Source of the DNA: Halopiger aswanensis | GTDB lineage: Archaea; Halobacteriota; Halobacteria; Halobacteriales; Natrialbaceae | NCBI RefSeq assembly: GCF_003610195.1 | Contig: NZ_RAPO01000002.1 | Coordinates: forward strand, 496,001 to 560,000 | DNA: 64,000 bases | Reading direction: 5' to 3' | Part shown: one piece after another, positions 8,331-12,405 of the stretch | Numbering within the stretch: position 1 is the stretch's first letter | How the letters are laid out: each line of letters starts with the position of its first letter | Made by a program: the position numbers and the translations under genes | The notes under the pieces: model-generated | Seen by the model: only the letters and a program-made list of their open reading frames with translations | Databases searched by the model: none | Told to the model about the DNA's origin: nothing

Positions 8331-9176
8331 TTACTCCGGAATGCCCCAGACCTCGTCGTCCCAGTCGCGAGCCGGGAAGTCGTAGACCGGCTGGTTGCGG
8401 TCGCGCTCGTCGAGGCGCCGCCGGTCGTCGTCGGACAGTTCCCAGTCGAACAGGTCGAAGTTCTCCGCGATGTGCTCGGGGCTGGTCGAGCGCGGCAGGG
8501 CGACGACGTCGCGGTCGAGCGCCCACCGGAGGACGATCTGTGCGGGCGACTTGTCGTACGCCTCGGCCAGTTCCTGGACGACCTCGTCGCCGAAGACGTC
8601 CGTGCGCCCGAGCGGCGCCGCGGCCTCGATCACGGTGTCCGTCTCGCGGCAGTAGTCGACAAGATCGGGCCGCTGGAGCCACGGGTGGAACTCGATCTGG
8701 TTGACCGCGATCGGGACGTCCGAGACGTGCTGGGCCGCACTGAGCTGGTAGGCGCTGAAGTTCGAAACGCCGACGTTCCGGACGAGCCCCTCCTCGTGCA
8801 GCGTCTCCATCGCGTGCATCGTCTCCCGCAGCGAGATTGCGGGGTTAGGCCAGTGGATCAGGTACAGATCGAGGTAGTCCGTCCCCAGCTTCTCGAGACT
8901 CTCCTTGCACGACGCGATCACGTCGTCGTAGTGGAGGTTCTTCGCGAGAACCTTCGAGGTAAGGAAGAGGTCGTCACGATCCACGTCGGCGCCGGCGAGC
9001 ACCTCGCCGATCTCTTCCTCGTTCATGTAGCCCTCGGCGGTGTCGATGTGCGTGTAGCCCGCCTCGAGGGCCGCTTCCACGGACTGTTTGACGGTCTCGC
9101 CCTCGAGTTCCCACGTGCCGAACCCGATCGTCGGCAGTTCGTCGCCACTCGGCAGGGTCTTCGTTGGGACTGTCAT
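8331..9176 (-). CDS. aldo/keto reductase
   Basis: A 281-residue NAD(P)H-dependent carbonyl reductase of the AKR superfamily. The catalytic tetrad is complete: D45 and Y50 in HIDTAEGY, K75 in FLTSKV, and H108 in YLIHWP. The family segments GVSNFSAYQL and ALPRSTSPEHIAENFD, which bind the cofactor phosphate/adenine part, are also present. The closest general group is 2,5-diketo-D-gluconate reductase-like AKRs, but the substrate is not deducible. Monocistronic, with a 370-base divergent gap to the exported nuclease gene. Confidence 0.88.
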   Translation of the reverse strand: MTVPTKTLPSGDELPTIGFGTWELEGETVKQSVEAALEAGYTHIDTAEGYMNEEEIGEVLAGADVDRDDLFLTSKVLAKNLHYDDVIASCKESLEKLGTDYLDLYLIHWPNPAISLRETMHAMETLHEEGLVRNVGVSNFSAYQLSAAQHVSDVPIAVNQIEFHPWLQRPDLVDYCRETDTVIEAAAPLGRTDVFGDEVVQELAEAYDKSPAQIVLRWALDRDVVALPRSTSPEHIAENFDLFDWELSDDDRRRLDERDRNQPVYDFPARDWDDEVWGIPE

Positions 9177-9546
9177 CGGTCGCTAGATTCCCGAGAGAGG
9201 GCCAATAATCTGCTGGTCGCGGAAATCGGGCTGGGTGCAACCGCAGCCATCGCCTGGAGAAGAGTCGACGAAACGACTCGTGGAAAGGGCCACAACGACT
9301 CGTGGAGCCCGCTTCAGGGCCGCGTTGAGATCGCCGGCCGCGTCTCTGGCTTCCTAGTACTATATTCACCCGCCGTCTCGAGCGAGGTGGACGCGATCGG
9401 TGTTTCGCCGGGGACGGTGTTCGAGAGCCCACAATTCGGGACTTGTAGTTCGAGCCCGGACTCGAGATCGGCGATGATCGAACTCGAGAGCAAGCGACCT
9501 CCACATCGGCGGCCGAAGCACACGAATCGCGCTCCGTTCACCGACA
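9177..9546. other. divergent intergenic region without a gene
   Basis: These 370 bases separate the divergent aldo/keto reductase and exported nuclease genes. No convincing ORF was found; the open frames there are extensions of shadows. A TATA-like TACTATATTC lies at 9358-9367, which would give the + strand gene a leader of about 150 bases. Nothing else was recognised. Confidence 0.5.
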
Positions 9547-12405
9547 ATGAAACGACGGACCCTCATACTCGGTTTCGGAACGGCGGCGGGCGCCGGCGCG
9601 ATCGTCGGCTCCGGGGCCTTCTCGACGGCATCGGCGGAGAGACAGATGACGGTACGCGTCGTCGACGACGCGAGTTCGTTTCTCGCCCTCGAACCGGGCG
9701 AGCAAAACGGCGCGCACGTCAGCAACGAGGACGGCGAGGCGGTCAGCATCGATTTCGGCGGCGGCGACGCGGTCGAGGGCGACGGCCTCGGGATCGATAC
9801 GGCGTACACGTTCGACGACACCCTTCACATCCGGAATCAGGGGACCGAGTCCGTGTTCGTCTGGACCAGTACCGAGAGCGACGCCTTCGATGACGATGAC
9901 GTTTATCTCTATCACGAAGACCCAGAGGCGCCGCTGTCCGACGCGCGGGCGATCGAGGTCGAGGTCGGGACGGAGATTCCGGTCGGCGTCTTCGTCGATA
10001 CGACCGGCCTCGAGACCGACGCGTACGACATCGGCGTAACGATTCAGGCGGCAGGAGAAGATCCAAACGGCGACGCACCTGGTGAGGGCGGTGACGGTGA
10101 GGCAGACGACCCGGTCTCGGATCCGATCCCGTCGGTCGTGCTCGACTCGGTCTCGAGTCTACTCGACGCGAATGAACAGCCGCTTACCGACGATTCGGCT
10201 GTCGCTATCTGGGCGGAGTCAACCGCGTATAACGGCGACGAAGACGGCAACGGTGACGCCGTCAACTATCCCGGCGGAACGGACATTCCGGTCGTCGCGA
10301 TCGACGGCACCGTCGTCGGACTCACCGGACCGTTCGCGGCCACCGATACCGACTTCGGCACGTACGGCAACGAGGAGTTCCTGCACAACGTCTACGACGA
10401 GTTGGTCGGCAGCGGGACGGTCCTGTACGACGAGGGGCACGGCCAGTACTACACGCGCTCGTCGAACGGCGGCGACGACTTCCAGGTCTTCGGCGACTAC
10501 CTCGAGGACGGCGGCTACTCCTACGACGCGACGACCGATCTCGAGTCGGACCTCGACGACGCGGCTGCAGTTGTGATCACCTCGCCGTCGGATGCGTTCA
10601 CCGACGGCGAACTCGCGGCGCTCTCGTCGTTCGTCGACGACGGCGGCGTGCTCTTCCTGCACGACCAGTCGGACTTCAGTGATTACGACGAAACGGACAC
10701 CCTCAACGAAATCGCCGACGAACTCTCACTGTCGTTCCGGTTCAACGACGATCAGGTGTACGACGACCAAACCAACGACGGCGTCGAGTTCGTCCCGACC
10801 ACGTCGAACTTCAACCGCGAAATGTACCCCGAGTTTTTTTCGAACCGTGACGGCATCGAGGACGACTCCGAACTGAATCCGTCGGAGCAGTACGAAGTAG
10901 ACGTTGTCGAAGTCACGGACGGCGATACGGCCGACGTCCAGTTCCAAGACGGCACCGTCGAAACCGTCCGCATCCTCGGCATCGACACCCCTGAAACCGG
11001 GAACACGGACGAGCGACTCGCGGAGTGGGAAGGCATCGAAGACGGCGACGCGCTCCGCGAGAAGGCCGACGCGGCGACCGACTACGCCGTCGACAAACTC
11101 GCCGGCGAGACGGTGACCCTCTCCTTCGACGAGAACGAAGGGCTGCGGGGGAACTACGGGCGACTGCTCGGTTTTCTCGACCTTCCCGACGGCACCCGCT
11201 ACAACGACGCCGTCCTCGAGGACGGCCACGCGCGAGTGTACGACTCCGGGCTCGAGGCCCACGACGAACTCTGGGACCTCGAGGCCGACGCTCGCGCGGC
11301 CGGGAGGGGACTCTGGGACCTTTCCGATCCCGCGGCGACGCCGGAGATCGGCGACGAGCCGGTGGAGGCGCTGTTCTTCCCCGAACCGGTCGAAGTCACG
11401 GGCAACGACGTTCCGGTGCGTTCCGAGAGCGGCGAGCCGCTCGTCGCCCTAGATACGGACGCCAACGTCGCTGCTATCGGCGGGCCGCTCGTCGAGGAGG
11501 ACTTCGAGAGCGCCGAGGGCGGCCCGGGAATCGACGAGTTCGGCGTCTACCCGTTCCTGACGAACGTGATCGACGCCGTCGAGACGGCGACCGGCCCGGT
11601 CCTCGTCGAGGGCGGCCACGGCCAGTTCGGCGCCGACTACGCGCTGTCGGCCGAAGACGTCGCCCACTACATGCGCTACCTCGAGGGGCAGGCTCCCGCC
11701 GACGAGGCGTTCATCGGCCTCGAGGGCGTCACCGACGTGACGAGCGATCCCGGTCCCGACCTGCTCGAGAACGGTAACCCGGCAGCACGCGCACTGGTGC
11801 TCTCGACGCCGACGTCGGAACTGACAGCCGACGAACGATCGGCGATCAGCGATTTCGCCGACGCCGGCGGCGCGGTCGTCCTGATCGGGACGGCCGCCGA
11901 TACCGACGCGCTCGAGCACTTCGAGCCGCTCCTCGAGGAGCTCGGAACGGACGTCGGGTTCACCGAACATGCGGTTACTGATTCGAACAACGCCCTCGCT
12001 GGCGACCCGTCGGTTCCGACGACGAGCAACTTTGACGACGGGTTTGCGGAGTTGTTCACGCCGTTTACGTCCGACGACGCGGCAGCAGACAGTGGCGTCG
12101 AAATCACCGACCTCGACGAGGAGGCGGAGTACGTCATCCTCGAGAACACCGGCTCGGAGTCGGTTTCTCTCGAGGGCTGGGCGCTTGCCGATGCCCACGG
12201 CGGCGAATACGAATTCTCCTCGTTGACGCTGACGAGCGGCGAGACGGTGGTGATCTATACGGACCAAACATCGTCCGTCCCCGACGCTGATTACGATCGA
12301 GATTGGGGAAGTCCGGGATACCAGGGATACGTCTGGAGTAACGACGGCGAGACGGCTACCCTCGAGGACGCCAATGGACGCGTCGTCGATACGTTGACGT
12401 ACTGA
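9547..12405 (+). CDS. exported multidomain nuclease: DUF1102-like, SNase-type thermonuclease and lamin-tail domains
   Basis: A 952-residue secreted protein. Residues 1-30 are a signal (RRTLILGFGTAAGAG). Residues 31-168 resemble the DUF1102/TasA-like haloarchaeal surface domain. Residues ~200-425 and ~608-832 are two related domains sharing YDEGHGQ/VEGGHGQ, ITSPSDAFTDGELAAL/LSTPTSELTADERSAI, DDGGVLFL/DAGGAVVLI and VPTTSNF; they look like DUF4350/GATase-like Rossmann domains. Residues 450-592 are a staphylococcal-nuclease domain with the catalytic set visible: DGDT (D458, D460), R475, D480, T481, E483 and R539. Residues 848-952 are a lamin-tail-domain-like beta sandwich (NTGSESVSLEGWALAD). It probably degrades extracellular DNA or RNA. 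A run of seven T at 10834-10840 does not break the frame. Confidence 0.82.
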   Translation: MKRRTLILGFGTAAGAGAIVGSGAFSTASAERQMTVRVVDDASSFLALEPGEQNGAHVSNEDGEAVSIDFGGGDAVEGDGLGIDTAYTFDDTLHIRNQGTESVFVWTSTESDAFDDDDVYLYHEDPEAPLSDARAIEVEVGTEIPVGVFVDTTGLETDAYDIGVTIQAAGEDPNGDAPGEGGDGEADDPVSDPIPSVVLDSVSSLLDANEQPLTDDSAVAIWAESTAYNGDEDGNGDAVNYPGGTDIPVVAIDGTVVGLTGPFAATDTDFGTYGNEEFLHNVYDELVGSGTVLYDEGHGQYYTRSSNGGDDFQVFGDYLEDGGYSYDATTDLESDLDDAAAVVITSPSDAFTDGELAALSSFVDDGGVLFLHDQSDFSDYDETDTLNEIADELSLSFRFNDDQVYDDQTNDGVEFVPTTSNFNREMYPEFFSNRDGIEDDSELNPSEQYEVDVVEVTDGDTADVQFQDGTVETVRILGIDTPETGNTDERLAEWEGIEDGDALREKADAATDYAVDKLAGETVTLSFDENEGLRGNYGRLLGFLDLPDGTRYNDAVLEDGHARVYDSGLEAHDELWDLEADARAAGRGLWDLSDPAATPEIGDEPVEALFFPEPVEVTGNDVPVRSESGEPLVALDTDANVAAIGGPLVEEDFESAEGGPGIDEFGVYPFLTNVIDAVETATGPVLVEGGHGQFGADYALSAEDVAHYMRYLEGQAPADEAFIGLEGVTDVTSDPGPDLLENGNPAARALVLSTPTSELTADERSAISDFADAGGAVVLIGTAADTDALEHFEPLLEELGTDVGFTEHAVTDSNNALAGDPSVPTTSNFDDGFAELFTPFTSDDAAADSGVEITDLDEEAEYVILENTGSESVSLEGWALADAHGGEYEFSSLTLTSGETVVIYTDQTSSVPDADYDRDWGSPGYQGYVWSNDGETATLEDANGRVVDTLTY

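Follow-up and report, generated by a model that had tools for sequence, protein, structure and literature searches.

The gene at positions 9547–12405 of the window, by which is meant the whole stretch of 64,000 nucleotides of Halopiger aswanensis DNA that was analysed, encodes a protein in which an SNase domain lies between two DUF4350/GIFT-type domains (D1 and D2), and this D1–SNase–D2 core is a conserved, unnamed family across Halobacteriales. What sequence comparison adds to the original prediction is a widespread, putative nuclease family with nested insertions, of which one clade is fused to a predicted filament-subunit module. We consider it probable that the protein is exported and cuts extracellular DNA while attached to the cell surface, its pilin-like head serving as the tether, and that it works like Hvo_1477 of Haloferax volcanii; phosphate and nucleotide feeding, together with remodelling of extracellular DNA, would be its most likely purpose.

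Modular architecture of the window protein

The gene is an intact reading frame of 952 codons in a GC-rich haloarchaeal genome, and its product comprises five modules, namely an N-terminal domain (NT), D1, an SNase fold, D2 and a lamin tail domain (LTD). The features are as follows:

9547..12405, + strand: whole gene, 952 aa plus stop codon; unbroken ORF under purifying selection against the sister species
9547..9636, + strand: signal peptide, aa 1–30, with twin-arginine motif (MKRRTLILGFG...GAFSTASA); cleavage position judged by eye; 50 of 54 aligned relatives have the RR motif; low-confidence and unstructured in the model
9628..10062, + strand: NT, Taf/TasA-type fimbrial-subunit domain, aa 28–172; TafE 6e-15, pilin 9p0a 1.1e-7, all-beta model
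10063..10116, + strand: acidic disordered linker, aa 173–190; pLDDT <50 at 177–190
10117..10866, + strand: D1, DUF4350/GIFT-type domain, aa 191–440; DUF4350 in Pfam, IFT52 by profile (E 0.001)
10429..10446, + strand: D1 signature DEGHGQ, aa 295–300; D295, H298 and Q300 kept in at least 98% of D1 copies
10873..11340, + strand: SNase domain, aa 443–598; Pfam, alignment and Foldseek (TM 0.86 by target)
11353..12072, + strand: D2, second DUF4350/GIFT-type domain, aa 603–842; 29% identity with D1, E 7e-14
11608..11625, + strand: D2 signature EGGHGQ, aa 688–693; at least 98% of D2 copies have GGHGQ
12094..12402, + strand: LTD, aa 850–952; Pfam 4.4e-19, Foldseek matches to lamin tails

Pfam and HMM searches give DUF4350 (PF14258; two stretches, 5.1e-13, 50.1 bits against a cut-off of 30.4), SNase (PF00565; 2.6e-10, 41.1 bits against 21) and LTD (PF00932; 69.3 bits against 34.3), all above their cut-offs and in agreement with the domain calls of the original prediction. 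An AlphaFold2 model of the full-length protein, which had been suggested as a check, has a mean pLDDT of 86.9 (54 aligned sequences), and Foldseek aligned its C-terminal end with lamin-tail domains (TM 0.61–0.77 by target) and its nuclease region with staphylococcal nuclease. In this model, the SNase domain is an OB-like SNase fold. The protein lacks cysteine and is strongly acidic, a composition that fits the expectation for a haloarchaeal exported protein. Export had also been predicted, and the RR motif stands at the N-terminus in the 50 aligned rows listed above, a count obtained with a loose pattern from 54 rows in which some ORFs start away from the true start. All domains are under purifying selection relative to the sister species, with dN/dS of 0.14–0.29 per domain; a scan for sigma-70-type promoters at the gene found nothing, such a scan not being meaningful for an archaeon.

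The catalytic residues D458, D460, R475, D480, T481, E483 and R539 align with D19, D21, R35, D40, T41, E43 and R87 of staphylococcal nuclease, respectively; the reference is the standard laboratory enzyme, its sequence typed by hand rather than fetched, and an independent PDB alignment spans the same region. All seven, which had been described as kept, are invariant in 40 of 40 aligned haloarchaeal proteins, the window protein included.

D1 and D2 are homologous, as the claim of an internal duplication had it. Both contain a GG turn and, further on, an invariant Asp, in addition to a signature of the D-x-G-H-G-Q type. The duplication is old, since each domain retains its own signature in relatives. 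Profile matches link D1 and D2 to DUF4350 and to the GIFT domain of IFT52/GldG, the D1 profile reaching that of IFT52; however, D1 and D2 carry the DEGHGQ-type signature, are predicted to be extracellular and are paired around a nuclease. Stand-alone exported D1 proteins of 259–265 aa are encoded at L216–L218 and L223 (genus g42), which means that D1 can also work as an independent domain; the neighbours of these four genes gave no clue to D1 function.

Family spread, nested insertions and variable tails

At a threshold of 1e-20, matches were found in 274 of 392 genomes, many of them SNase-only, while dozens span nearly the whole core at 45–72% identity. Scanning the species genomes of GTDB yielded 78 loci from named organisms, and the carriers include Halobacterium salinarum (L146, a locus with no recognisable NT), Haloferax larsenii, Halorubrum, Haladaptatus, Halorussus and Natrinema; in plasmid records, such proteins are named "PKD domain-containing", "thermonuclease family" or "lamin tail domain-containing". 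The domain order had been called unusual, and its conservation in related species was to be checked: D1–SNase–D2 is in fact widespread in haloarchaea and recurs in many genera, and it is the pilin-like N-terminal fusion that is restricted, mostly to one clade. An assembly artefact is ruled out, as numerous independent genomes show this same junction. Some proteins (L219:3472-5721, L049 and L077) have SNase at their very start and a DUF4350-type domain behind it, with no D1 ahead.

An SNase domain interrupted by one or two complete DUF4350 domains occurs in at least 18 distinct relatives. A single DUF4350 domain, or two of them in L045/L187 and L184, separates the first catalytic half from the half that carries R87. 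Loci with nested insertions are L038–L042, L045, L127–L129, L131, L132, L166–L168, L174, L175 and L179, and further L184, L186–L188, L196, L201 and L206. When the insert is set aside, the six nested relatives that were aligned retain the full catalytic set, and such insertions offer a natural test of placing a domain in a nuclease loop without losing catalytic residues. Because the insert enters the chain a little past the position equivalent to E43, the inserted DUF4350 domain would lie beside the active site, and it is mainly from this position that a clamp or substrate-handling role is proposed for DUF4350 domains. In the model of one nested relative, which is weaker (pLDDT 75.7, 12 sequences), the SNase strands precede the insert and the helices follow it, in the expected order; a fold search with this model did not recover SNase across the gap and returned IMPa metallopeptidase (E 1.2e-5, rmsd 11.7, TM 0.15) and IFT52. 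It is the sequence and the order of secondary-structure elements that suggest intact folding of the split SNase.

The tails of the family vary, with no LTD, one or two LTDs, PPC or fn3. In the sister species (G009, L058), a stop codon lies between D2 and an in-frame LTD remnant while the remainder is conserved, so the tail looks dispensable. The C-terminus of L039/L201 carries what looks by eye like a cohesin-type domain with dockerin-like calcium repeats, where the Pfam result is limited to a weak EF-hand match.

Flanking domains and variable tails of this kind resemble the modules of matrix proteins, and it has been reported that extracellular DNA matters in Halorubrum biofilms (PMC5118699); the protein might thus be a non-catalytic matrix component that binds extracellular DNA and stabilises the biofilm. 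This is very improbable, since in a protein that only binds DNA one would expect loss of the catalytic set in some lineages, but that set is invariant in all 40 members, including the six with an insert inside the domain.

The pilin-like N-terminal head

The first 100–150 residues match the TafE fimbrial adapter (NCBIfam NF052522) from residue 1, and in a PDB sequence search the solved pilin 9p0a also matches NT from residue 1. DUF1102 scores 17.7 bits, under its cut-off of 22.2; the label "DUF1102-like" used originally is therefore better replaced by Taf/TasA-type fimbrial-subunit domain. With 55.4 bits, NT stays far below the 155 required by the TafE equivalog model, so its identification as TafE proper was rejected and it was classed as Taf-like. 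Judged by its sequence matches, NT is a member of the Taf/TasA-type fimbrial-subunit superfamily placed directly behind the signal peptide. In the AlphaFold2 model it is all beta, with a first strand at residues 28–39, at the expected signal cleavage site. TafE and 9p0a resemble NT in the signal region and a beta domain of about 150 residues, whereas TafE is a small protein (176-position model) and NT is fused to a large nuclease.

A more distant likeness, through Taf, is that to TasA of Bacillus and to archaeal bundling and thread filaments, in which a small beta subunit follows a signal peptide (PMC10151520, PMC9715654); in the window genome, an archaeal-type SipW-like signal peptidase stands beside the Taf-like genes at locus L078, where Taf-like proteins are encoded at 8656-9270 and 9283-9825. 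It has been reported that the subunits of TasA filaments and archaeal thread filaments are joined by donor-strand complementation (PMC9715654, PMC10151520). For NT, donor-strand exchange is a proposed mode of docking.

NT fusions are present in 21 of 108 compared relatives, and 20 of these fall within one clade of 23 (support 100) in a tree of the 108 cores made by a quick search with SH-aLRT support only; on this tree, NT presence needs 4 changes, against 19.4 in shuffles. The fusion is restricted mostly to one clade spanning several families. Outside its own genus, the nearest relatives of the window protein are in Halovenus and in another genome of a different family (f4), while the window genome belongs to a family-level group that includes Natrialba (f1); this placement of the nearest relatives outside the family suggests horizontal transfer.

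Other Taf-like genes are present in all 15 NT-fusion genomes searched, which is weak evidence for a connection because Taf-like genes are common in haloarchaea, with matches in 24 of 31 sampled relatives' genomes. The Taf-like cluster of the window genome lies about 0.75 Mb from the window gene, without linkage. This lack of linkage, the score of NT far under the TafE cut-off, and the fact that most of the family keeps D1–SNase–D2 with NT absent are what would be expected if the head of the same extracellular nuclease were only a folded spacer or generic surface domain, with attachment by the LTD or by glycan binding of D1/D2, or with release to the medium. However, NT shows the strongest constraint of all domains in the comparison with the sister species (dN/dS 0.14), members of several families retain it, and the LTD is missing in many relatives that lack NT and truncated in the sister species; we therefore regard a spacer head as rather unlikely and prefer a head that tethers the nuclease.

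An NT–D1 gene without a nuclease lies immediately upstream of the NT–D1–SNase–D2 gene at the Halorubrum-type loci L139, L141, L142, L144, L165 and L169, and such an upstream gene is also present at L098, L099 and L104. In the six loci checked, the two genes overlap by 4 bases (ATGA), which suggests a co-translated pair.

Taf-like N-terminal domains also head other large proteins. For instance, at L226:2953-7257 (− strand) one is fused to an entire GH97 glycosidase together with a glucodextranase C-terminal module, which makes this a second enzyme with such a head; L225:2747-10582 (− strand), L224:2569-11479 and L229:4059-6302 provide further cases, in which the fused part is that of a 2612-aa PKD/PQQ protein or of one of several right-handed beta-helix proteins. 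The recurrence of the same module on GH97, beta-helix and PKD/PQQ proteins fits a general display module. It may tentatively be proposed, with the balance somewhat against it, that haloarchaeal filaments carry enzymes, an N-terminal TasA-like pilin module docking interchangeable heads (nuclease, GH97 glycosidase, beta-helices and PKD arrays) and the nuclease being gripped between two GIFT-type domains. If the pilin-like head does dock, the window protein would exemplify an archaeal filament that bears an enzyme.

Probable function and comparison with known nucleases

Extracellular DNA is both a nutrient and a biofilm material for haloarchaea. It has been reported that Hvo_1477 of Haloferax volcanii, a 327-aa putative lipoprotein with SNase and LTD, is required for growth on DNA, and when described it was the first archaeal gene tied to the use of extracellular DNA (PMC3929857). 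The window protein is likewise predicted to be a haloarchaeal exported SNase with a C-terminal LTD, for which extracellular DNA is the expected substrate. However, D1, D2 and the pilin-like head are absent from Hvo_1477, and the window protein has a twin-arginine-type signal, with no cysteine and no lipobox. The D1–SNase–D2 proteins would thus form a second, more elaborate and widespread nuclease family beside Hvo_1477. Of the roles proposed originally, breakdown of extracellular DNA with nutrient recycling fits best, given that a haloarchaeal SNase+LTD protein is required for growth on DNA. The Bacillus subtilis nuclease YhcR has been named a homologue of Hvo_1477 (PMC3929857). Like the window protein, YhcR is a large multidomain exported nuclease with an SNase-type domain. 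It differs from the window protein in its partner domains and anchoring.

The analogy with Hvo_1477, the complete catalytic residues and the RR signal motif make DNA cutting at the cell surface the most likely activity. In the proposed mechanism, the protein would be exported through its twin-arginine signal, as the conserved motif suggests; after cleavage, NT would face outward and would probably use strand exchange to dock onto a Taf/TasA-like filament or the base of one. DNA would then be cut by the SNase domain through the usual Ca2+-dependent mechanism, to which the complete catalytic set and the predicted fold point, while D1 and D2 might, more speculatively, flank the nuclease as a clamp or binding platform for the substrate or a surface ligand via their GHGQ sites. 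The LTD may provide a further, dispensable surface contact.

The near neighbours of the window gene are housekeeping genes, and this near neighbourhood is retained in the sister species; no phosphate or nucleotide genes adjoin the gene, a point against the preferred reading, no defence genes were found among its near neighbours, and a scan of viral contigs returned no relatives. Antiviral defence, which had been another suggested role, thus draws no support from the near neighbourhood or from viral contigs. The PADLOC candidate model "SNc+LTD" does match the window protein (3.8e-21), as would be expected of an enzyme destroying viral or foreign DNA at the cell surface, but the matched part is the SNase region, and the hit may be due simply to this combination of domains; there is only a slim chance that defence is the role of the protein, and nutrient recycling from extracellular DNA remains the preferred reading.

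In addition to the window protein, its genome encodes two SNase+LTD proteins of 472 aa each that closely resemble one another and have membrane segments at the N-terminus (L079:3719-5137 and L080:4925-6343), located on two small contigs (C13 and C11).
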